Shown: positions 9,944-43,953 of the stretch, in pieces
Layout of the letters: every line of letters starts with the position of its first letter
How positions within the stretch are numbered: the first letter of the stretch is position 1
Assembly (NCBI RefSeq): GCF_000011905.1
Contig: NC_002936.3
Coordinates: 1,364,001-1,428,000 of the forward strand
DNA from: Dehalococcoides mccartyi 195
Lineage (GTDB): Bacteria > Chloroflexota > Dehalococcoidia > Dehalococcoidales > Dehalococcoidaceae
Direction of reading: 5' to 3'
DNA: 64,000 nt
Notes under the pieces: generated by a model
Database searches by the model: none
Told to the model about the DNA's origin: nothing
Seen by the model: the letters and a program-made list of their open reading frames with translations, nothing else
Program-made: the position numbers and the translations under genes

Positions 9944-10213
9944 CTAGGCTTTTTCTTTGTTACCGGCTATTAGCCGCCAGTCTACAACCCCCAGAATTAT
10001 TCCAATAATGCCAAAGATGCCCATGCCTACCCAGGCAGCCTTGATATCATTTTCCGCCAGTGACCCGTAAAAATGCTGGACAGCCGCAAACAGTGACAGG
10101 GTGGCCAGAAGGGCAATCAACCATTGCCACCAGGTAATCTGTTTATTCTGCCTTATCAGCCAGTATATAGCCAAAGCAAAAACTGCTCCAACTGCTAAAC
10201 CTATAAAATACAT
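9944..10213 (-). CDS. rdhB: Reductive dehalogenase membrane anchor RdhB2
   Basis: 89 residues, three membrane helices. The usual WYEWL is changed to TWWQWLIALL, followed by QHFYGSLAEND and an IAGNKEKA tail. It starts 20 bases after rdhA2 with GGAGAAGAG upstream. It is the most divergent anchor of the set in its first loop. Confidence 0.92.
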   Translation of the reverse strand: MYFIGLAVGAVFALAIYWLIRQNKQITWWQWLIALLATLSLFAAVQHFYGSLAENDIKAAWVGMGIFGIIGIILGVVDWRLIAGNKEKA

Positions 10214-14651: not shown

Positions 14652-15104
14652 TCAGACTACGGTAAAAGAAACGCTGATTAACTCCGATATATCCAGGTAA
14701 ACCACAGCCGTATAATCACCGGCAGCAAAGCCGCTTTCCTGCTGCGGATAAAACTCAATGCTGTCAGGATTTTTCAGGTCACTCTCACCCACAGTTTGAG
14801 TATAAGTAAATATGATTTCGTCATTGCACTTAAGCACTATAGACAGGTCATGGCAGCATATTTCATCGGTTATCCAGTAAGTAAGGATAATTACTTTTGT
14901 GCCTTCGGCAAATGTAGTGGCAGGGTTTACCGGCACGCCCTGAGCATCTATCTCAGTAGATACTTCGCCCTTGATTATACGTACGTAGGTATCAGGGCAG
15001 ACGTTGTCAGCAGGCGGTTCAACATAGGCATCATTGGCACAGCCGGTGATGAGCAGGCCTAAACCGGCCAGTATACTTAGTAAGCTAACCGCCTTCAGTT
15101 TCAT
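14652..15104 (-). CDS. Small Cys-rich lipoprotein, rdh cassette type (copy 1)
   Basis: 150 residues from ATG 15104 (GAGGG upstream; the longer frame to 15158 would pass through a hairpin). Signal peptide with lipobox LITGC, so it is a predicted lipoprotein exposed outside the membrane. Mature part has CPDTYV, an EICC pair, and a C-terminal beta-rich half ending GDYTAVVYLDISELISVSFTVV broken into strands. It is homologous to the gene at 39346, which sits in the same position after rdhB. No named family recognised. A link to organohalide respiration is inferred from the repeated rdhA-rdhB-lipoprotein order. Confidence 0.75.
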   Translation of the reverse strand: MKLKAVSLLSILAGLGLLITGCANDAYVEPPADNVCPDTYVRIIKGEVSTEIDAQGVPVNPATTFAEGTKVIILTYWITDEICCHDLSIVLKCNDEIIFTYTQTVGESDLKNPDSIEFYPQQESGFAAGDYTAVVYLDISELISVSFTVV

Positions 15105-15130: not shown

Positions 15131-15155
15131 TGGGGGGCTGGAACCCAGCCCCCCA
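15131..15155. terminator. Hairpin between rdhB3 and lipoprotein gene
   Basis: Perfect 11-bp stem TGGGGGGCTGG / CCAGCCCCCCA with a three-base loop. No T-run follows on the minus strand, so it is more likely an mRNA-processing, stability or attenuating hairpin than a full terminator. Confidence 0.5.
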
Positions 15156-17309: not shown

Positions 17310-18379
17310 ATGCAAGAAGAACAGAGCCACATTAACACGGATAAAAGTGCTAATCCGCCTGTTTTAAATGACTGGGCGACAACACTTCTGGACGCAGCCC
17401 CGATTGCCTTCTACCTGCTGGATAAAGACCTGAGAGTCATTGAGGCAAATGCCAAGGGAATAGAGTTTCTGGGTAAAAAATCCCGCTCAGAGGTCATTAA
17501 CAGAAATATCATGGATGTTGCCCCCGGAATACCGCCTATTCATATCCACAGCTACAAACAGATTCTCAAAACGGGCATACCCAAAATATGCCCCAGCATC
17601 AAAGCCTGGCCGACAGTTGGGGAAAACCGGTATATAAATTCGATACGCTTTCCGGTGCGGGACGGTCTGGGCATTATCGTGACAGACATAACTGACCAGT
17701 ATAAACTTGAACGTGAGCTCAAAAAAATAAAACCCAGCTTAAAGAGCTGGCTTCAGCCTATGTAAGTTCACAGGAAAACGAAAGGGAGCTGATTGCTTGC
17801 GAGGTGCATGACCGGGTAATCCAGCTTCTGATTAGTTCCTGCCGGCTGATTGAAAGTACCAAACAGGCCGGCACCGATTCACCCCAAATGAATAAATCCC
17901 TGAACGAAATAAACGACACAATCTTAAAAACTATCGCCGAATGCCGCCTGATAACCAAACAGCTATACCCGTCTGTATTATCAGAAGGCGGACTGGTTTC
18001 GGTTATAACCGAAGAGCTAAGTGCCTTGAAACTAACCGGCATGTCAGCCGAACTGACAACCGATAAAACCGCCCCTATACCCAAACCGGTTGCCGAGGTA
18101 CTTTACAGGATATTCCATGAGGCTATCTGGAATGCCCAGAGACATTCCAAGGCCAGCCATATTGATGTTATACTAAAAATAGTGGAAAACGGCGTAAGAC
18201 TGGCGGTTATTGATGACGGATGCGGGTTCAATCTGTACAAATCCCTGCAATCCGGCAAATTTGGCGGGCTGAAAAGTATGCGCAGACGGGCCGAACTGAT
18301 GGGCGGCAGTTTCAATATAGAAAGTGAGATAGGTAAAGGTACATCTATCGAAGTTTTTATCCCGTTTTCGGTAGGGTAG
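17310..18379 (+). pseudogene. PAS sensor histidine kinase split by a frameshift
   Basis: Two frames make one kinase. The first (17310-17765) holds the PAS domain; the second continues from about 17735 with EVHDRVIQ (HisKA_3 histidine) and HATPase motifs HEAIWNAQRHSKASH, DDGCGF and GLKSMRRRAELMGG. One extra A in the A7 run at 17721-17727 would give a continuous 356-residue protein matching the intact kinase at 42069. Without it translation stops at 17765, though GTG 17804 could start the catalytic half. It is divergent from rdhA3 and directly before its regulator. Either a recent null mutation, a phase-variable tract, or an assembly error. Confidence 0.8.
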
Positions 18380-18384
18380 GGAAA

Positions 18385-19044
18385 ATGCTTGAGAGTAAGA
18401 TAAAAGTACTGATATGTGATGACCATGACATAGTTTGTCAGGGGTTAGTAAATATTATTTCCTGCGAAGCTGATTTGGAAATAGTGGGGTGCGCGGCCAA
18501 TCTAAGTTCAGCTTTGACCATGATAAGAGAATTAAAACCGGATGTTGTCCTGGCTGATATCCGCCTTGGAGATGAAAACGGATTTGACCTGATAAAACAA
18601 AGCCACCGGGCGGGGTTCAAAATACCCTTTATCATGATTACAGGGTTTAAAAACGAATTTTACGTATCCAAGGCCATAGAAAACGGGGCAGCCGGACTGC
18701 TATCCAAAGAAAGCCCCGGCAGAGTAATAGTTAATTCCATCCGCCTGACTTTTGACGGCAACAGTGTCTGGCCGATGGAATTATTAAAAAACACTTATAA
18801 CAGTCTGTCCATATCACATTACGCATCAGATACAGATACCAATCTGGCTGTGCCTAACTTCACACCGCGGGAAAAAGAGATAATTAAATTTCTGCTGAAG
18901 GGCAATACCAATAAAGCCATTGCCCATGAACTGGGTTTATCTGATGTTACCGTGAAAAAGAGCCTTAAAAATATTATGACCAAACTCCATGTTGATAACC
19001 GGATGAAACTGGCAATGGTCATAAGCAGGCTTAGCCTGGACTAG
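18385..19044 (+). CDS. NarL/LuxR-type response regulator (rdhA3 cassette)
   Basis: 219 residues, five bases after the kinase. Receiver with Asp12-Asp13, phosphoacceptor Asp58 (VVLADIRLGDENG) and a C-terminal LuxR helix-turn-helix (FTPREKEIIKFLLKGNTN, then VTVKKSLKNIMTKL). ATG is preceded by GTAGGG. The predicted target is the ATACGTA array upstream of rdhA3. If the kinase is truly broken, this regulator would depend on another kinase. Confidence 0.92.
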   Translation: MLESKIKVLICDDHDIVCQGLVNIISCEADLEIVGCAANLSSALTMIRELKPDVVLADIRLGDENGFDLIKQSHRAGFKIPFIMITGFKNEFYVSKAIENGAAGLLSKESPGRVIVNSIRLTFDGNSVWPMELLKNTYNSLSISHYASDTDTNLAVPNFTPREKEIIKFLLKGNTNKAIAHELGLSDVTVKKSLKNIMTKLHVDNRMKLAMVISRLSLD

Positions 19045-34113: not shown

Positions 34114-35732
<1,619 letters not shown>

Positions 35733-35736
<4 letters not shown>

Positions 35737-36665
35737 TTCCCGCTCCTTTGGCCTTTTAAGCGACGGCAAACATCGCATTCCCCTGGCAGAAAATTGGTTA
35801 AAATCAGAGTTTGAATATCTCTCTTAAGGGTTTGTGTTTCCATTCCAAGTTGTTTATAGGCTTCCCGTATGTATGTGAATTTTTTCAAATTATCGATGCT
35901 TAATAATTTGGTTATTGCTTCCAGACATGCCTCTTCAGCGCCTGGGCAGCTTAATAAAGTGGTACCCGGTTTTATTATTATTTCCCCCCGGTTCTTATTA
36001 ATTTGTAACCTTTCAACTGCTTTTTCAAGTATTGTGCGATCATTTAGAAGTATGAATTTAAAGCTGTTTTTACATATAAAATCAAGCAAAATACCCTTCT
36101 CATCCCTTGCTTCTGCGCATACTTCTATCCCTACTTCTCTCCCCATTCTATCCATACCTTCTACTAATTCTTTTCGGAAGAAGATACACCTATTTATATA
36201 GTTCTCGCATGCTGCTTTCCAACCTTTTAATGAAAAGAAGGTAAGGTTATGGTTTAAATGCTGTTCAACAAGGGTGAAAAGAAGACTGTTTTCAAGTTCT
36301 AAATTAACGATAATATCTGTGGACGACTCAGGTTGCGTGGCAACTACTTTCCCTGCATTAAATTCAATTTTATAAGTATCTTGGTCAAAATAAAACCGGG
36401 TATCGGGCTCCGGCAGGGCAATAGCCGCATCAAGTTCGTTTAAGGTGGCAAGGAGTTGTTCTTGGTGCTTGGTCAGTGCTGTTTTTAGTACCTCAAGTTC
36501 GGCTTGGTCAAAACGGCGTTCCGCTTGAGCTTCGGTTATATATTTGCGGATAGTCCTGATATCCCTACCTTTCCGTTGGGCTAAATGGGCTTCTGACCAG
36601 CCGCTCTCATATAAGTCAAGCCATTCGCGGGTTTCCTTAATAGACGGAGCCTTTTTTCTTGGCAT
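35733..36665 (-). CDS. Integrase-linked protein with N-terminal HTH
   Basis: 310 residues, coupled to the integrase by an ATGA overlap. It begins MPRKKAPSIKETREWLDLYE with a helix-turn-helix (GWSEAHLAQRKGRDIRTIRKYI), then a helical segment, and ends in a CDVCRRLKG motif. No named family. The N-terminal DNA-binding region and tight coupling suggest an accessory (directionality or regulatory) protein for the recombinase; that is inference. Confidence 0.7.
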
Positions 36666-36784
36666 ATTTTACCCCCTTGACAGCCTGATAAGTCTGCCTG
36701 TGATTCATTATAACATAATTATATGCTCTTACCAATGCTAATTACAACTAATATATGTATTTTGCGGTTTGTTATTATGAATAT

Positions 36785-36913
36785 ATGGGCAGGAAAAAGA
36801 CAGCCAAGGCAAATTCTATAGACCCCCAGACGATGAAGGGGCTAAAAATCCTTGCCCGGATAATTGTTCGACAGTACTTGATAGATAAAGGAAAAGCCCG
36901 CTCAAATGATTAA
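36785..36913 (+). CDS. Possible 42-residue basic protein
   Basis: ATG 36785 to TAA 36911, encoding a basic peptide (MGRKKTAKANSIDPQTMKGL and onward to KARSND). It is divergent from the integrase operon and ends inside a bidirectional terminator. No clear ribosome site, so it is uncertain. Position and charge would suit a small DNA-binding or excision factor. Confidence 0.4.
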   Translation: MGRKKTAKANSIDPQTMKGLKILARIIVRQYLIDKGKARSND

Positions 36914-36932
36914 ATCCAGAGCGGGCTTTTTA
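36893..36932. terminator. Bidirectional terminator
   Basis: Stem AAAAGCCCGCTC / GAGCGGGCTTTTT with a 13-base loop. T-runs on both strands serve the small plus-strand ORF and the minus-strand gene ending at 36945. Confidence 0.8.
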
Positions 36933-36944
36933 GCTGGACATTTG

Positions 36945-37535
36945 CTACTCGAAATAGAATACGATTGCGCACCTTTTAGATGCCGTCTTATCCTGATGCC
37001 AAAGTCTGAACTGATATGTGCCGGATTCGGTAGCATGGCAGCTAAGCACTGCCCGATAGCCATTTTCATATCGCTCAACATTATATGAAGGTGTAACGCC
37101 AACCGGGCCTTTGTTTGTGTATTTGGATATTTCACAATTTAAATCTTGGCCTAAAGGTACATCACTATAGATAACAATTTTCAGGTTGTCTCCGGGAACC
37201 AGATAAAATACATCCGAAAAGTACATGCCGTATCTTGAGCCGGCATTATAAGGTTGATGAGTTTCTGAATAATCATACTTATTCAGGTAATTGACTAATC
37301 TGTATGAATCATAAAAATCAAGAAAGACATACCCAGCCGCATACCGCCCGGATGTTTTAAGACCATCGAGTGTAAGGGGGGATTGGAGGATAGATTGCTT
37401 GGTCGGTATAGATCTGACAGCAGGGGCTGAATCATCTGAATCAGCCGAGTTTACAAAATAAGCGACTGCATTCCATGCAAAAATCAACATGATAACCAGT
37501 AAAACAGCTTGGATTAATCTTGCGAGTGTTTTCAT
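36945..37535 (-). CDS. Membrane-anchored protein of unknown function
   Basis: 196 residues with an N-terminal signal anchor (LIQAVLLVIMLIFAWNAVAYF) and an extracytoplasmic part that looks beta-rich, ending SGTYQFRLWHQDKTASKRCA. No family recognised. Divergent from the XRE gene across an inverted-repeat operator, so both may be under XRE control. Confidence 0.65.
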   Translation of the reverse strand: MKTLARLIQAVLLVIMLIFAWNAVAYFVNSADSDDSAPAVRSIPTKQSILQSPLTLDGLKTSGRYAAGYVFLDFYDSYRLVNYLNKYDYSETHQPYNAGSRYGMYFSDVFYLVPGDNLKIVIYSDVPLGQDLNCEISKYTNKGPVGVTPSYNVERYENGYRAVLSCHATESGTYQFRLWHQDKTASKRCAIVFYFE

Positions 37536-37572
37536 TAAACTCCCCTAATACTTATAAATGATACTTATAGTC

Positions 37573-37591
37573 TGTAGACCTATAGTCTACA
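37573..37591. promoter_or_regulatory. Operator TGTAGAC-CTATA-GTCTACA
   Basis: Perfect 7-bp arms with a 5-bp spacer, 33 bases before the XRE start and 38 before the divergent gene start. A likely XRE autoregulation site. The half-site GTCTA also occurs in the chromosomal MarR operators, but the spacing differs. Confidence 0.65.
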
Positions 37592-37623
37592 TCACCATAT
37601 CATGTTGGTCAATAGGAATTTAT

Positions 37624-37842
37624 ATGATGACTGAAAAGACTATTGAACAACGATTCGGTGAACGCATACGCGATTTAAGGAAGAAAGCCGGAGTCTCGCA
37701 AGAGGAGTTGGCTGATCGGGCAGGTGTTCACAGGACATATTTAGGTGGTATCGAACGGGGCGAGAGGAATCCTTCGCTCAAGAATATTTATGCCATTTCC
37801 AGGGCCCTCAAAGTGCCAGTTTCAGATCTCTTTAAGACCTAA
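37624..37842 (+). CDS. XRE-family transcriptional regulator
   Basis: 72 residues from ATG 37624 (AGGAATTT upstream; the longer frame from 37558 would run through the operator). Nearly all helix-turn-helix: ERIRDLRKKAGVSQEELADR, AGVHRTYLGGIERGERNPSL. Probably the element's repressor controlling itself and the divergent membrane protein. Confidence 0.88.
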   Translation: MMTEKTIEQRFGERIRDLRKKAGVSQEELADRAGVHRTYLGGIERGERNPSLKNIYAISRALKVPVSDLFKT

Positions 37843-38220
37843 CCAGCCTCTAAAGCTTATTCAATTCTCACCCTTAGCGCTGCAAATTGCCCTTTATTAT
37901 GACCATACAAAAGGTTCTTTTGTAAACTATCAAACGGTAATTACTGTTTGATAAAATGCCCAGATAGACGTGTCAAACCCAATTACTTAGGCTAAAATAG
38001 AAATTGAGGGGGTTATTTTTTGAGGGGGTAGGTGATATCCTAGTTTCAAAATCCCTATGTATAACTTGGTAAGGCATCTAGATCTTGTTAAAGGATTATC
38101 ACAGGACAAAATATATCGATAATAATAACGGTAGTAATATGAGAAAGAATAGCGCTTTTATATGAGTGACTGTTTTCATAATGGTATCGATATTAATTAC
38201 TGATGCAAGAGGAGAATACA
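37843..38220. other. 378-bp intergenic stretch with a 26-bp palindrome
   Basis: Contains a near-perfect 26-bp palindrome at 37928-37953 (arms TATCAAAC/GTTTGATA around GTAATTAC, one mismatch) 85 bases after the XRE stop. It is followed by ATAAAAT and could act as operator or terminator. The rest is AT-rich without a gene; no riboswitch consensus was seen. Confidence 0.5.
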
Positions 38221-38463
38221 ATGAGTATTGAACCTAGTGAAGAGGATAAGAAAGCAATTGAAATTGCACGTAAATTTAATATTAGACTTGGTACTCTAAA
38301 ATGCACCGTATTTGATTTATTTGAACATGGTTACTTGTGTCATGAGGTTAAGTTTATTCTAAATAATAGTATTGGTGACCCGTATGACAAAATCATATAC
38401 AAACGGGAGACTATCAGGATGTATTATTCTGAGTGGAAATCTAAAAAGCAGCAGATGCATTAG
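38221..38463 (+). CDS. Hypothetical 80-residue protein
   Basis: From ATG 38221 with a strong AAGAGGAGAATACA site (ATG 38203 is an alternative). Sequence MSIEPSEEDKKAIEIARKFN, ending YSEWKSKKQQMH; acidic start, basic end, no known family. AT-rich. Converges with cbiZ. Confidence 0.6.
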   Translation: MSIEPSEEDKKAIEIARKFNIRLGTLKCTVFDLFEHGYLCHEVKFILNNSIGDPYDKIIYKRETIRMYYSEWKSKKQQMH

Positions 38464-38504
38464 TTAATTAAGGTTTAATTCATTGGATAATACATCAAAT
38501 ACCC

Positions 38505-39305
38505 CTAGTACCCCCGGCAGTTCCTGATAGCCTGTTTGACGGCTCTGGTGGTTGCTCTGGCCATCATCTCCCCCAGTTTGGTATGCCCGCCTACATAAGT
38601 GTATTTTCCACCTGTGCCTGATACAGTAATTATTTGGTCTGTACCCGTACCGGTTGCCTGCCACTCTGGATGTGCCGCACTCCGTATATCCAGCTCCTGC
38701 AAGGCTACGTTCTTGGCTTCGGTCAGGGTAATGTATGAAGATGCCAGGGTGGGTGTCTCAAGGCTTGAGCCGGTCAGCAGGATAACATTAATCGTGCCTA
38801 TCTTCTCAAACTTGCCGTTACGCTCTATGCCGCTGGCTTCATCACAGCCTATCCGCATGGCATTGGTCTTAACTCCGGCGGTGGCAAAGGCCAACACCCA
38901 GAATTCCTCATAGGTTTCTTCCGCCCAGGCTATATTGTCCTGGTCTACCCCGGTAGATAGGAATGAGACATTATCCAGGTCTGTATCGTATCTTTTGAGG
39001 ACTTCTTCCAGTACTACCGAGTAGGCTGTTTGCCAGTCTGCCGAGTTGTCATGCATAAAGTCCCAGAGTTCGGGGGGGATATGGGTATTGAGTATATATT
39101 TGGCTTTGCCCAATCCGGTGCGGGTGGAGAGTATATTCCTTTCCTCCAGCAGTTCTATAACCAGAGTATTGGTGGATACTCCCAGAGCTTTATGATAGGC
39201 AATGCCTGCTCTTACCCCGTGGAAACAGCCCAGCTCTTTGTAAGTATCTATTTTAAGTTCTTGTAACACCTTGTTCCTCCAAATTATGCTTGATTCTTCA
39301 GCCAA
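38505..39305 (-). CDS. cbiZ: CbiZ-type adenosylcobinamide amidohydrolase
   Basis: 266 residues. It shows FLSTGVDQDNIAW, then TNAMRIGCDEASG, and GTINVILLTG, the conserved segments of CbiZ. The enzyme removes the lower-ligand loop of salvaged corrinoids to allow remodelling. D. mccartyi cannot make corrinoids and depends on this pathway, and RdhA needs a specific cobamide. It is on the same strand as the lipoprotein, rdhB7 and rdhA7, 40 bases after the lipoprotein gene, and thus probably part of the transferred operon. Confidence 0.88.
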   Translation of the reverse strand: MAEESSIIWRNKVLQELKIDTYKELGCFHGVRAGIAYHKALGVSTNTLVIELLEERNILSTRTGLGKAKYILNTHIPPELWDFMHDNSADWQTAYSVVLEEVLKRYDTDLDNVSFLSTGVDQDNIAWAEETYEEFWVLAFATAGVKTNAMRIGCDEASGIERNGKFEKIGTINVILLTGSSLETPTLASSYITLTEAKNVALQELDIRSAAHPEWQATGTGTDQIITVSGTGGKYTYVGGHTKLGEMMARATTRAVKQAIRNCRGY

Positions 39306-39345
39306 CTAAAAAACAGTCCCCTCCTAAAAACAAGTGATACAAGCT

Positions 39346-39798
39346 TCAATTTATCGTAAAATATTCAGTCACTAATTCGCGGAATCCCAAATACATTGTT
39401 ACCCTGTAATCACCTTTGGCAAAACCACCAGCCGGTTTATCCAGAGAGAGAGTCTGAGGTATGAGATTACCTATGCCGACGCCTTCCCAAGTACCGATAA
39501 TTTCTTCTCCGTAAAACCATCTAACAAACAGTGTCGTGCAACAAATGTCCGGCACTATAAAAGTGCAATAGATTTTAGGTGTTTCGACCGTAAATTCATG
39601 AGTAAGCTGAATTGGATTACCATTTTCGTCAATAGCAGCGGATAAAACTGCTTCGTCAATTTGTACCAAAGTATCCGGGCAAACTTCAGGTATCTGTTCA
39701 GGTTGCTCAATTATATTCTTACTATTTGCACAGGCAGCTAATAACCCTATTGAGAATATACTGATGAAAGTGAGCGCAAATCTAATCAATCTATGCAT
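39346..39798 (-). CDS. Small Cys-rich lipoprotein, rdh cassette type (copy 2)
   Basis: 150 residues. Signal peptide with lipobox LLAAC; mature part with EVCPDTLVQI, DICCTTLF and a C-terminal GGFAKGDYRVTMYLGF. It aligns along its length with the product at 14652 (CPDT, ICC, GGFA/SGFAAGDY), and both genes follow rdhB. The paired Cys residues may bind metal or form disulfides. Function unknown. Confidence 0.78.
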   Translation of the reverse strand: MHRLIRFALTFISIFSIGLLAACANSKNIIEQPEQIPEVCPDTLVQIDEAVLSAAIDENGNPIQLTHEFTVETPKIYCTFIVPDICCTTLFVRWFYGEEIIGTWEGVGIGNLIPQTLSLDKPAGGFAKGDYRVTMYLGFRELVTEYFTIN

Positions 39799-39986
39799 TC
39801 TTTATCCTTCCAATATGCCAATATATGTAATCTGGAAATTTGGGCATCAGAAGTTTTCCGGCTTGTTTCTGTTGATAGTATTAATAATATTATTTGGGAA
39901 TCACCTAAAATACCCTGGGGATTAAGCAATTTTACGTTAGCTTACAATTGTAAGTGTTGAACCATAATATACCCCTTGTATTAAAT

Positions 39987-40012
39987 AAGCGGGGGAAACT
40001 ACTCCCCCGCTT
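39987..40012 (-). terminator. Hairpin after rdhB7
   Basis: Perfect 10-bp stem AAGCGGGGGA / TCCCCCGCTT, 23 bases past the rdhB7 stop. The stem sequence is identical to the rdhB4 terminator, but only TATTTAATA follows on the minus strand, so read-through into the lipoprotein and cbiZ is possible. Confidence 0.65.
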
Positions 40013-40034
40013 GAATAAGTACAGGAAATCTGGC

Positions 40035-40307
40035 TTAGGCCTTTTTGATTCTTCTGGCAGCTAATTGCCAAGTTAATGCCAGCAAAATCAGAGATGGTAA
40101 ACCGGTCACCAGCAGAAACATGGTGGCGGCTTTGGGTTCTATTTCAACATAACTGCCCAAATAATTCTGGACAGTAAAAAGCAACAATGCCAATCCTGCA
40201 ATCCCCAATAGCCATTCGTACCAGGTAAGCTTGAAGTTACTGCGTTTCTGTAGCCACATAAAACCTAAAAATAAAGCTCCAACTAACAGCCCGATAATAA
40301 ACCACAT
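40035..40307 (-). CDS. rdhB: Reductive dehalogenase membrane anchor RdhB7
   Basis: 90 residues, three membrane helices, LTWYEWLLGIAG, QNYLGSYVEIEPKAATMF and LTWQLAARRIKKA. Gap of 32 bases after rdhA7, the largest here. Belongs to the QNY/QNF type with RdhB5 and RdhB6. Confidence 0.93.
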   Translation of the reverse strand: MWFIIGLLVGALFLGFMWLQKRSNFKLTWYEWLLGIAGLALLLFTVQNYLGSYVEIEPKAATMFLLVTGLPSLILLALTWQLAARRIKKA

Positions 40308-40339
40308 AATTTTTTACCTTCCGAAGATATTTTTCCTGA

Positions 40340-41788
40340 TTAATTGTAATAGGCGTCATTATCGTAATGAATGCCATTTACAGGGAATGAATTTGTCCAC
40401 CATTCTTCAATGGTATCTTCAGGTTTAAGACCATAACCAAATCCTTTGTCCATATTTACAAAAAAGCTATTAAGCATTGTAGTTTTGGCAAGAGTAGCTT
40501 TAACAATTTCGTGGACACTGGAAGCATCATCCTTGCTGAAGACACAAACCGCTTGGCAAACGCCGCAATAGGTATCTGATTCATTCCAATAGCGATTACA
40601 TTTGAAATGGTCAAGTGGCCAGTTATTTAAACCGGGATTATTGAAAAGGTTTGGTTTGACCGAATCATAAGCTTGAACTATATCCCATGTGAGCTTTGTC
40701 TCTTTTGACAATGCACCAGAAGGGCAAAGATCAGCACATTTTTTACAGGTAATACAAAACTTTCTGGCACCGAAATCTATCGGCTTCTTGGGGGCTACCG
40801 GCAGATTTACAATATTCATAGTTGACTGACGAATCATGGGTCCCCAACCCGGAGTTATCAAATGTGCCAAACGGCCTTGTTCGCCAAGCCCAGACATAAC
40901 ACCCCAACCAACAATCGGGCCGTTGCCCTGTATATTCTGGCTGACAGAAAAATAGCCCAGTACTTTAAGAAATGCCTGTAAACGCCACTGTGCTATATCA
41001 CAGTTGTCATAAGCTTGTCCGGCTGCTCCATCAGAAAGGTACCCGACCCTACTGGAAGTATCCAATGATTGTCTTACAGTATGCACTACTGCATAAATAC
41101 CAGTATCCGGAATAATTACCTTGTTTGAAGCACTGTTGAAAGAAGGCTTTGGTGCTTCTTCAAAGGTTATATCGGGATATGTCCCCTGAGGCATCTGTGC
41201 CCATATCATCTTGCGGGTGTTTTCATTTATCTCGGCAAAACTAACACTAGATGCGCCAAAGAACCGCAATGCTTGAGTAATCATATTGGAACCTTCCTCA
41301 GGTGTGCCTTGCCATTTGGGAACCCCCAACATTTCAGGGGTAGGAACAGTATCCCAACCTTCCACCAGATCCTTGGTCAGGTTTGGTTGTGTCATCCGGT
41401 ACCACACACCAGCCCAACCACCCACTTTAATTGCATTATCGCGAAGGGTTTGCCCAGGCTTGGAAGAACTGGTCATTCGTGCAATAGCTTCTTGCTTTGT
41501 CTTGGCTTGAATAGCTTTTACTTCTTCAGTTGTCAAATGGGCGGTAAAGTTGTTATAACTGCCCTTCTGGAATCTTTGCAATATATTCCAGTCAATTTCG
41601 GTAGTTGGTTGGTCTACTTCTTTTACCCACCAGGGATTAGCATAATCACTTTCAGCTGAGGTAGATATTACTTCATCCAGATCACGAAACACCGGGGCTA
41701 CAGCCGCAGTTGTCCCAACTCCGGCTCCTGCCAGACCAAGGGCTTTCATAAAATCCCTTCTGCTTACTATTGAGTGAAAACTAGACAT
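40340..41788 (-). CDS. rdhA: Reductive dehalogenase catalytic subunit RdhA7 (on element)
   Basis: 482 residues. Tat leader SRRDFMKALGLAGAG; first cluster CITCKKCADLCPSG; second cluster CGVCQAVCVF, with Val after the last Cys as in rdhA5. CGGAGGAGTAA precedes the ATG, and CAGGAGGTGGA lies at 41855-41865. Codon use is AT-richer than in rdhA1-6. It is part of the serine-integrase element with its own sensor pair. Confidence 0.96.
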   Translation of the reverse strand: MSSFHSIVSRRDFMKALGLAGAGVGTTAAVAPVFRDLDEVISTSAESDYANPWWVKEVDQPTTEIDWNILQRFQKGSYNNFTAHLTTEEVKAIQAKTKQEAIARMTSSSKPGQTLRDNAIKVGGWAGVWYRMTQPNLTKDLVEGWDTVPTPEMLGVPKWQGTPEEGSNMITQALRFFGASSVSFAEINENTRKMIWAQMPQGTYPDITFEEAPKPSFNSASNKVIIPDTGIYAVVHTVRQSLDTSSRVGYLSDGAAGQAYDNCDIAQWRLQAFLKVLGYFSVSQNIQGNGPIVGWGVMSGLGEQGRLAHLITPGWGPMIRQSTMNIVNLPVAPKKPIDFGARKFCITCKKCADLCPSGALSKETKLTWDIVQAYDSVKPNLFNNPGLNNWPLDHFKCNRYWNESDTYCGVCQAVCVFSKDDASSVHEIVKATLAKTTMLNSFFVNMDKGFGYGLKPEDTIEEWWTNSFPVNGIHYDNDAYYN

Positions 41789-41946
41789 TTACTCCTCCGA
41801 TATGAATTTGCTTTTGAGATACAGTTTTGAGTTTCATGGAGTTAATTTCTGCTGTCCACCTCCTGCACTTTTACAATAGATATTAAATTCAATAAGCATA
41901 TTAATCATCGTACCAAAGTATTAACGAGTATAAGCAATTGAGAGTC

Positions 41947-41975
41947 TTGGTAGCCTCCTTAAAGGAGGCTACCAA
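41947..41975. repeat. Perfect hairpin with internal SD/anti-SD pairing
   Basis: Arms TTGGTAGCCTCCTT and AAGGAGGCTACCAA around a single A, in the 280-bp divergent region of rdhA7 and its kinase. The right arm includes AAAGGAGG. No T-run follows, so it is not a normal terminator; it may be an operator or an RNA element. Confidence 0.6.
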
Positions 41976-42068
41976 AGGTGTATTTTAAGAATGAAATCCT
42001 AGACTGAGCAGTAATTAGTCTAAAATAGTCTTAGCCTAGAGCTGTATTTTGTATGTTATAATCCGAGT

Positions 42069-43115
42069 ATGAGTAGAAAAGTGCTTGGCGAAAAACAATT
42101 ACCAACGCAAGAAGTTTTGCCCGCAAATGATTTGATGATAAGCGGTATCAGAGATTCGGTATTTATTGCGGATCTAAATGGCAAAATAGTATTTGCTAAT
42201 GATCAGGCTTGTAAAGTTCACGGATATACAAAAGGCGAATTTAAAGGCCTGAATGTCATAGATATAGTCCCACCCGAGCGGGTTAAAGAGGTTATGCCAC
42301 ACATCAACAAAGTCAAAGCACAGGGATATTCTATTCATAATTCAATTCACCGATGTAAAAATGGTGAAATAAAAATATCAGAGATTTCCTTAAGGCTTAT
42401 TGAGATGGACAACCATGAATATATCCTGGCATTGTTTAAGGATATATCTGAGTTCCAAACAAAAATTCAGACTTATGTTGCAGCACAAGAAAAAGAACGG
42501 GAGTGGGTTTCAATTGAGATTCACGACAGGATTGTCCAGAATCTGTCTGGGATTTTGCATCAAATAAATGCTTTGACCCTCTGCAAGAAACCTTTTAATA
42601 AGGATAAAAGAGATAAACTGGATGAATTATCGGGGCAATTGAATAATACTATAATTGAAGCTCGAAGTATTATGCGGGAACTTTACCCAAGCACACTCGC
42701 TAGGTATGGACTTATCAGGCTAATCCAAGAAGAATCAATTCATCTGCAAGATGAAATGCATTGTGAGATAAAGTTTAATCATTCACTGACAAAAGCAGTG
42801 CCGCCGTATTTAGAGACAACAATATACCGGATTGTCCATGAGGCTTTATTAAATGCTAAGAAGTATTCTCAGGCATCACAAATAGTTGTTGATCTTAATA
42901 GGACTGATAAAAATATTTCGCTTGACATATGTGATAACGGAATCGGTTTTTGCTTAAAAAACGTCGATTGGATACGGCCGAGTGGGTTACAAAGTATGCG
43001 CCAAAGAGCAGAGATTGTCAGCGGAACATTTTGTATTAGAAGTGGGGTAAAGGGTACCTGTATTCATGTTTTGCTGCCTATAATTAATCACATAATGCCT
43101 ACATTATCACTTTAA
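42069..43115 (+). CDS. PAS sensor histidine kinase (rdhA7)
   Basis: 348 residues, soluble. PAS domain (about 22-130), then HisKA_3 with His152 (EIHDRIVQNLSGIL) and HATPase with EALLNAKKYSQAS, DICDNGIGF and GLQSMRQRAEIVSG. It is the intact homolog of the frameshifted kinase at 17310. Divergent from rdhA7, 17 bases before its regulator. Confidence 0.93.
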   Translation: MSRKVLGEKQLPTQEVLPANDLMISGIRDSVFIADLNGKIVFANDQACKVHGYTKGEFKGLNVIDIVPPERVKEVMPHINKVKAQGYSIHNSIHRCKNGEIKISEISLRLIEMDNHEYILALFKDISEFQTKIQTYVAAQEKEREWVSIEIHDRIVQNLSGILHQINALTLCKKPFNKDKRDKLDELSGQLNNTIIEARSIMRELYPSTLARYGLIRLIQEESIHLQDEMHCEIKFNHSLTKAVPPYLETTIYRIVHEALLNAKKYSQASQIVVDLNRTDKNISLDICDNGIGFCLKNVDWIRPSGLQSMRQRAEIVSGTFCIRSGVKGTCIHVLLPIINHIMPTLSL

Positions 43116-43132
43116 CGATATCCGAGGTTAAA

Positions 43133-43813
43133 ATGGGGAATTTATCAGACAATATACGTAACCCAATCAGAATATTTATTGTTGATGACCATGAAATAGT
43201 GAGACAAGGCCTTAAAGTCATTATTAATCAAGAACAGGACTTTGAATTAGTAGGTGAATCAAATGGACAAAAAGGACTCCTGAAGGAAATTGCTGAAGCT
43301 CATCCGGATGTATTATTACTGGACATAAGGATTAGTGGTTCAGATGGATTTGATATTGCTTCACAGCTTAATGAAAAGTTTCCTTCCATAAAAATTCTGA
43401 TAATTTCCGGATATGAAAGTGAATTGTATTTAGTTGAGGCATTAGATCATAAGGTTAGCGGATTTATACCGAAGGGGTCTTCGCGAGATTATGTTTGTTC
43501 AGCGATTCGCATGGTTGCTCTTGGTGGTACAGTTTGGCACGGAGAGCTATTGTACAGAGTTATCAGGGGGTTGAGTAGACTAGGGAATGAACCTAATGAT
43601 ACAAAAGTACAAATAGGGAAAAGCCATTTAAAACCTCGCGAATTAAAAGTACTATCATTATTGGCCAAAGGGAAGTTAAACAAAGAAATATGCTTCGAAC
43701 TACAGATATCGATGGATACTGTTAAAAAAGATATACATCAGTTAAAAAGTAAATACGGAGTGTTTAATCGTACTCAACTTGCTACTATAGCAACTGAGAT
43801 GCAATTAAAGTAA
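43133..43813 (+). CDS. NarL/LuxR-type response regulator (rdhA7)
   Basis: 226 residues. Receiver with Asp18-Asp19, Asp64 (VLLLDIRISGSDG), and LuxR-type helix-turn-helix (LKPRELKVLSLLAKGKLNKE; MDTVKKDIHQLKSKY). Last gene before attR; ends 85 bases before the integrase's predicted original stop. Confidence 0.93.
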   Translation: MGNLSDNIRNPIRIFIVDDHEIVRQGLKVIINQEQDFELVGESNGQKGLLKEIAEAHPDVLLLDIRISGSDGFDIASQLNEKFPSIKILIISGYESELYLVEALDHKVSGFIPKGSSRDYVCSAIRMVALGGTVWHGELLYRVIRGLSRLGNEPNDTKVQIGKSHLKPRELKVLSLLAKGKLNKEICFELQISMDTVKKDIHQLKSKYGVFNRTQLATIATEMQLK

Positions 43814-43898
43814 GTGACTTATCATCAGCAAATATAAATTATTGAGGTCAATTTTATTGGGAGCATAGGGCTCAAACAGCACCCAATTTATGACGTCT

Positions 43899-43953
43899 TT
43901 AACTAATTAGAAATATGAATTGAAAAGTTCTACCTATTGATATCTCAGCTCCA
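43899..43953. mobile_element. attR with the original 3' end of the integrase gene
   Basis: P arm AAGTTCTACCTATTGATA (43925-43942), then core CTCAGCTCCA (43944-43953). On the minus strand the frame that continues from the integrase across the core gives GAG then ISIGRTFQFIFLIS and TAA (43899-43901). This is the piece of the integrase gene separated from it by insertion. Confidence 0.8.

Follow-up and report, generated by a model that had tools for sequence, protein, structure and literature searches.

Two lipoprotein genes downstream of rdhB

The window (the whole 64-kb stretch analysed here, positions 1364001–1428000 of a single-contig genome of 1,469,720 bases) holds two minus-strand genes for lipoproteins of 150 residues, each within a dehalogenase cassette (Table 1). 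Both products carry a signal peptide and, as the initial annotation had stated, a lipobox (LITG-C, C22, in copy 1; LLAA-C, C23, in copy 2), CPDT, a cysteine pair within [ED]ICC, and a beta-rich C-terminal end containing GDY. The two are 35% identical over 148 residues (E 4e-18). Each is the next same-strand gene after rdhB, at a distance of 66 nt in cassette 1 and 236 nt in cassette 2, so the described placement right after rdhB also held.

Table 1 Features of the two cassettes in the window.
Feature	Coordinates	Strand	Remarks
Lipoprotein copy 1, 150 aa	14652..15104	-	ORF, pairwise comparison, alignment
Hairpin, rdhB/lipoprotein spacer, cassette 1	15131..15155	-	z -3.6; no T-run after
rdhB, cassette 1, 95 aa	15171..15458	-	aligns with other RdhB
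rdhA, cassette 1, 469 aa	15479..16888	-	PF13486, TIGR02486
Divergent sensor kinase and response regulator, cassette 1	17310..19044	+	kinase frameshifted (17310-17765 + 17804-18379); regulator 18385-19044
Mobile-element stretch common with genome G002 at 99.3%	34163..43953		large serine-recombinase-like ORF 34114-35778; adjoins tRNA-Ala 34120-34195
cbiZ, adenosylcobinamide amidohydrolase	38505..39305	-	PF01955; last gene of pDhc6-shared block
Lipoprotein copy 2, 150 aa	39346..39798	-	on mobile element; apparently DET1557
Hairpin, rdhB/lipoprotein spacer, cassette 2	39987..40012	-	z -4.0
rdhB, cassette 2, 90 aa	40035..40307	-	95.6% identity to pDhc6
rdhA, cassette 2, 482 aa	40340..41788	-	PF13486, TIGR02486; 96.9% identity to pDhc6
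Divergent PAS/HisKA_3 kinase and LuxR-type regulator, cassette 2	42069..43813	+	kinase 42069-43115; regulator 43133-43813

The cassettes had been described as sharing the same PAS/HisKA_3-LuxR regulators. This held only weakly, as the regulators of cassettes 1 and 2 are just 34–36% identical and the cassette 1 kinase (17310–18379) is frameshifted near an A7 run at ~17720 into a PAS ORF and a HisKA_3/ATPase ORF. Nor is the arrangement general across the family: other copies are accompanied by MarR-type regulators, by other two-component pairs or by none, and the regulators of plasmid pDhc6 (see below) differ as well, so the idea of a shared regulator was rejected. The placement of copy 2 on a mobile element was borne out by the nearly identical element in G002. 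Of the 65 differences between the two elements (the G002 copy is locus L021), 49 fall in rdhA-rdhB and the spacer (window 39810–41564), while the lipoprotein gene shows none; recombination seems to have swapped rdhAB within an element that otherwise stayed the same.

DET numbers for genes of the host genome were assigned here from gene order and published numbering, and on this basis copy 2 is apparently DET1557. This protein had been listed, without a function, as a Dehalococcoides-specific signature protein and was then found in Dehalogenimonas alkenigignens as DEALK_19030 (PMC4918011), where the neighbouring numbers are rdhB (DEALK_19040) and rdhA (DEALK_19050); the passages of that paper on DET1557 make no mention of a lipoprotein nature, a fold, paralogs or rdh linkage. 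Among the main texts of open-access papers, we found none that describes the proteins as lipoproteins or reports a family tied to rdh genes, and searches of these texts for the locus tags turned up DET1557, in its role of signature protein, along with DET1558/DET1559 and DET0318-0320, and no others. The family, proposed as new by the initial annotation, is new for Pfam and NCBIfam, but one member was already a signature protein and, as shown below, the family appears to be a branch of a wider Ig-like group.

Linkage to rdhA-rdhB across Dehalococcoidaceae

A search of the host genome found four copies of the lipoprotein, all of them at rdhAB, which excludes chance. The third (L020) lies behind an rdhA/rdhB pair at ~305–307 kb, apparently pceAB, with a CxxCxxCC protein between, and the fourth (L019) lies behind rdhAB at ~1067 kb, with an FmdB-type zinc-ribbon protein between. 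Using a family profile, we identified 13 full-length copies in 7 of 11 Dehalococcoidaceae genomes, of which three belong to one genus and four to another; the weaker matches in these genomes were limited to the N-terminal signal-peptide part. Homologs lying mostly away from rdh genes had been named as the finding that would speak against a functional link. Instead, within their 12-kb surroundings, all 13 copies share the strand of rdhA-rdhB and lie downstream of the pair, separated from it by at most one gene and within ~2.3 kb of rdhA, and none of the 13, nor any other copy with the Cys-Cys pair, was found elsewhere in the 11 genomes. The probability of such placement by chance is roughly 10^-22, a value that serves as a guide only because the copies are not independent. 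Together with a copy on a plasmid, this strongly supports a real family linked to rdhAB. The second genus is taken to be Dehalogenimonas, whose genomes are reported to have only 3–6 rdhB each versus far more rdhA (PMC13390414); all four of its copies are at rdhB-carrying loci. The genomes searched for relatives were those of the class Dehalococcoidia. Sets of viral contigs, genome contigs (two scans) and phages gave no convincing relatives, which is not evidence of absence as records near the window may be missing from those sets.

The plasmid copy, the fourteenth, is on pDhc6 of D. mccartyi 11a5 (NZ_CP011128.1, 5939 bp; L018); a circular extrachromosomal element of this strain is on record in the literature (Zhao et al. 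2017, a reference of PMC12838431). Only six genes are annotated on this circular plasmid (1–5939): rdhA, genes for two hypothetical proteins that correspond to RdhB and the lipoprotein, cbiZ, and genes for a kinase and for a response regulator. It consists solely of a dehalogenase cassette with regulators, and the annotation lists no replication gene. Its homology to the window is confined to a single 3.27-kb stretch spanning rdhA-rdhB-lipoprotein-cbiZ (93.6% identity), in which the lipoprotein is 98.0% and CbiZ 90.6% identical at the protein level (RdhA and RdhB in Table 1). As this homology ends before the regulators, the lipoprotein travels with the enzyme and not with the regulators; the response regulators are 27% identical over 140 residues and the kinases show no significant match. 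The pattern indicates that enzyme, anchor, lipoprotein and cbiZ form a conserved unit with exchangeable regulators.

Where a gene intervenes between rdhB and the lipoprotein, it encodes an FmdB-type zinc-ribbon protein (L019 6654–6998, L022 5388–5690, L026 6297–6590), a CxxCxxCC metal-chelating protein of PF03692 (L020 6024–6599, L023 5964–6539, L024 6259–6834), or an RdhC-like protein (FMN_bind/Fer4_5). PF03692 is a putative zinc- or iron-chelating domain and would fit the assembly of a metal enzyme, unlike the annotation of DET0320 as a putative regulator (PMC3986231). The copy in genome G007 (L027 5527–5934) is truncated, ending with GNY after 135 residues; transposase-like ORFs follow directly, and an insertion has probably damaged the gene. 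RdhC/PceC, a membrane flavoprotein with FMN_bind, Fer4_5 and Fe-S motifs, resembles the lipoprotein in being an accessory gene downstream of rdhB that is separated by a hairpin. However, the two have neither sequence nor predicted fold in common, the lipoproteins match no FMN_bind or other Pfam model and lack Fe-S motifs, and at L025 both are present, the RdhC-like gene preceding the lipoprotein.

The position of cbiZ raises an alternative, in which the lipoprotein is a surface catcher of cobinamide or other corrinoids that supplies CbiZ as well as RdhA, itself cobamide-dependent. In cassette 2, pDhc6, L019 and L022, the cbiZ gene comes after the lipoprotein gene or close to it, and in L026 one gene separates the two, but it is not near in cassette 1, L025, L027, L028 or L029, and nothing among the structure and sequence matches obtained resembled known corrinoid binders. 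We consider this role improbable.

Conserved cysteines, predicted fold and relatives

Across 13 aligned sequences, the lipobox cysteine, F65, C83-C84 and G129 are invariant. These proteins are thus predicted to be bacterial lipoproteins, with a less typical GSG-C in three PceA-type copies. Most copies carry an additional tether cysteine, usually as part of CPD. In its place, the three PceA-type copies have two different cysteines, a hint, though no proof, that the disulfide partners have changed. An AlphaFold2 model built on 37 sequences (mean pLDDT 86.7, with blocks of 87–98 from residue 41 on) shows seven strands and, beyond the signal peptide, no helix. The mature part is thus confidently predicted to be a seven-stranded Ig-like beta-sandwich following a tether of ~20 residues. 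Among solved structures, it most resembles Ig-like domains from proteins unrelated to it (Z up to 11.7), such as the PA1606 Ig-like protein (3n6y), the Ig-like domain of xylosyltransferase-1 and MG2 of alpha2-macroglobulin (Z 10.6, 11.7 and 9.6, respectively). These come from unrelated contexts at 12–14% identity and share only the fold. SoxZ and PmoD (Z 8.2 and 8.1) appear among many unrelated Ig-like entries, without a sequence match. As the matches are many unrelated Ig-like domains, no function was read from them. The top Foldseek entries, UNC119 and RhoGDI, were not used because of poor alignment (TM 0.35–0.4). Scans of Pfam and NCBIfam gave only sub-threshold matches, with no model claiming the family, and a PDB sequence search with the family profile gave only weak immunoglobulin matches (E 0.12 or worse).

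The initial annotation had suggested an exposed accessory or electron-transfer protein. The link to RdhA stood, but electron transfer found no support. While a location on the outer face beside RdhA would suit a protein that passes electrons to it, the sequences examined lack CxxCH and CxxCxxC as well as any heme, flavin or Fe-S motif, the Pfam and NCBIfam scans matched them to no cytochrome c, ferredoxin, flavodoxin or other redox family, and the model is an Ig-like sandwich. As there is no cofactor motif, we regard this role as very unlikely.

Distant relatives of the domain are common in the class (profile E 1e-15 to 1e-8 to many Dehalococcoidia lipoproteins; sets of 393 genomes for the class and 156 for the order), often in tandem and in lipoproteins of other families. 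These single- or tandem-domain proteins are uncharacterised and have no Pfam name, with sub-threshold likeness to MG2, CARDB, DUF6941 and DUF3859. Like the rdh-linked copies, they have a lipobox, the same domain and an F...I[YF]C[TS]...G-Y...F pattern; unlike them, they lack the Cys-Cys pair at the aligned place and do not lie beside rdhA. In the 393-genome set, two carriers have an rdhA over the family cut-off among the matches listed, in one case on another contig (G355) and in the other ~17 kb from the relative (G229). In comparison, all 14 rdh-linked copies, pDhc6 included, combine a Cys pair before the third strand with a position after rdhAB. As relatives without the pair occur away from rdhA, the rdh-linked Cys-Cys type looks like a specialised offshoot of a broader group of Ig-like lipoproteins.

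These cysteines could be functional, as a redox-active pair or a metal site with a part in protecting or repairing the oxygen-sensitive enzyme or in inserting its clusters. C83-C84 never varies within the rdh-linked branch and is absent from the relatives, extra cysteines accompany it in both the common and the PceA-type copies, and some loci have metal-binding neighbours. However, there is no match to a known redox or metal family, and a structural disulfide would explain the cysteines equally well, so we hold this possibility to be fairly unlikely. A second alternative is that an ordinary surface lipoprotein hitchhikes with mobile rdh cassettes without acting on RdhAB. The abundance of non-linked relatives and the small part of rdhA loci that carry the gene are in its favour. 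Yet no Cys-Cys copy was found away from rdhAB, the linkage recurs in two genera, in differing surroundings and on a minimal plasmid, and the gene is under purifying selection, with dN/dS of 0.10–0.24 in close pairs, where measurable; hitchhiking is accordingly a poor candidate.

In the more diverged pairs, selection on the lipoprotein is weaker than on RdhA (dN/dS 0.03–0.04 for RdhA), and the lipoprotein evolves faster than RdhA. Groups of RdhA are matched by groups of the lipoprotein. The tree, in which several branches are long, gave lipoprotein-bearing RdhA no single origin but 5 changes, of which at least 3 are forced. The matching groups and the carriers, which do not form a clade, fit repeated gain or loss with cognate pairing. 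Only one of 740 columns separates lipoprotein-bearing from other RdhA or RdhB, which we took as chance.

The spacer hairpin and the proposed role

A strong hairpin is predicted 3' of rdhB in 14/14 lipoprotein cassettes (z -3.1 to -7.6), mostly without a T-run. Of 7 loci that lack the lipoprotein, 6 likewise have a hairpin after rdhB, and hence it is not lipoprotein-specific. Altogether, 20 of 21 rdhAB loci tested have one (z about -3 to -8), at a conserved place but with varying sequence; in the window, these include loci besides the lipoprotein cassettes, downstream of rdhB at 9944, 19821, 22393 and 27957. A hairpin between pceB and pceC has been proposed to protect pceAB mRNA while pceCT decays (PMC8905343). 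As a strong hairpin separates rdhB from the lipoprotein gene, the lipoprotein is perhaps made in smaller amounts than RdhAB. In array data, DET1558-1559 and DET0318-0320 cluster with respiration and DET1559 was called constitutive (PMC3986231); DET0321 and DET1557 are not named in the main text of that paper.

We propose that the lipoprotein acts, without a catalytic function, as a dedicated partner for the RdhAB pair whose genes immediately precede its own. It would be exported by Sec and lipid-anchored on the outer face, displaying its single Ig-like sandwich and conserved cysteines at the end of the tether, while RdhA would be exported by Tat and anchored by RdhB. There it may bind its cognate RdhAB on the same membrane face and help to assemble, dock or stabilise it in the respiratory complex, probably at less than one copy per RdhA, given the strong hairpin. 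The linkage of 13/13 copies, the pDhc6 block, the group matching with RdhA and the purifying selection argue for such a helper, as do the Dehalogenimonas copies at rdhB loci, the relatives without Cys-Cys, the metal-type and RdhC-like intervening genes and the hairpin in 14/14 cassettes. Against it, the seven carrier genomes have 210 rdhA matches and the lipoprotein is at only ~6% of them (13/210), so it is not generally needed. Its faster evolution than RdhA, the lack of a feature common to lipoprotein-bearing RdhA or RdhB and the non-specific hairpin also count against it, and cbiZ near the lipoprotein in four loci makes a corrinoid role possible. The studies consulted on the organohalide-respiration complex name no such subunit, in other strains or for other dehalogenases (PMC6005880, on strain CBDB1; PMC10624902). 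We judge the case for a helper of assembly, docking or stability to be about evenly balanced.

The protein might instead be a stable third subunit, a structural part present one-to-one in an RdhA-RdhB-lipoprotein complex. The strict linkage and group matching would be expected of a subunit, the lipid anchor places it on the same membrane face, and Ig-like domains are common as binding modules. The low share of rdhA loci with the gene and the smaller amount suggested by the hairpin speak against this, as does the solved Desulfitobacterium PceA2B2 complex, which has no such part (PMC10624902), and a one-to-one subunit seems to us possible but unlikely. Combining this with functional cysteines, some Dehalococcoidaceae dehalogenases, apparently including strain 195 PceA, which acts on tetrachloroethene, could be three-part enzymes in which a lipid-anchored Ig-like subunit joins RdhA and RdhB, its Cys-Cys pair forming a redox-sensitive or metal-binding site on the outer face, a more speculative and rather doubtful extension.

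Found every time with particular RdhAB pairs, that of PceA apparently among them, the protein is a tangible candidate for an assembly or docking part that is missing from the picture of how Dehalococcoides dehalogenases are attached to the outer membrane face and exchanged within a common respiratory complex. It also marks dehalogenase cassettes that are complete and transferable, as on pDhc6. The carriers respire chlorinated pollutants, and the lipoprotein is a candidate open to direct tests (co-expression, crosslinked complexes).
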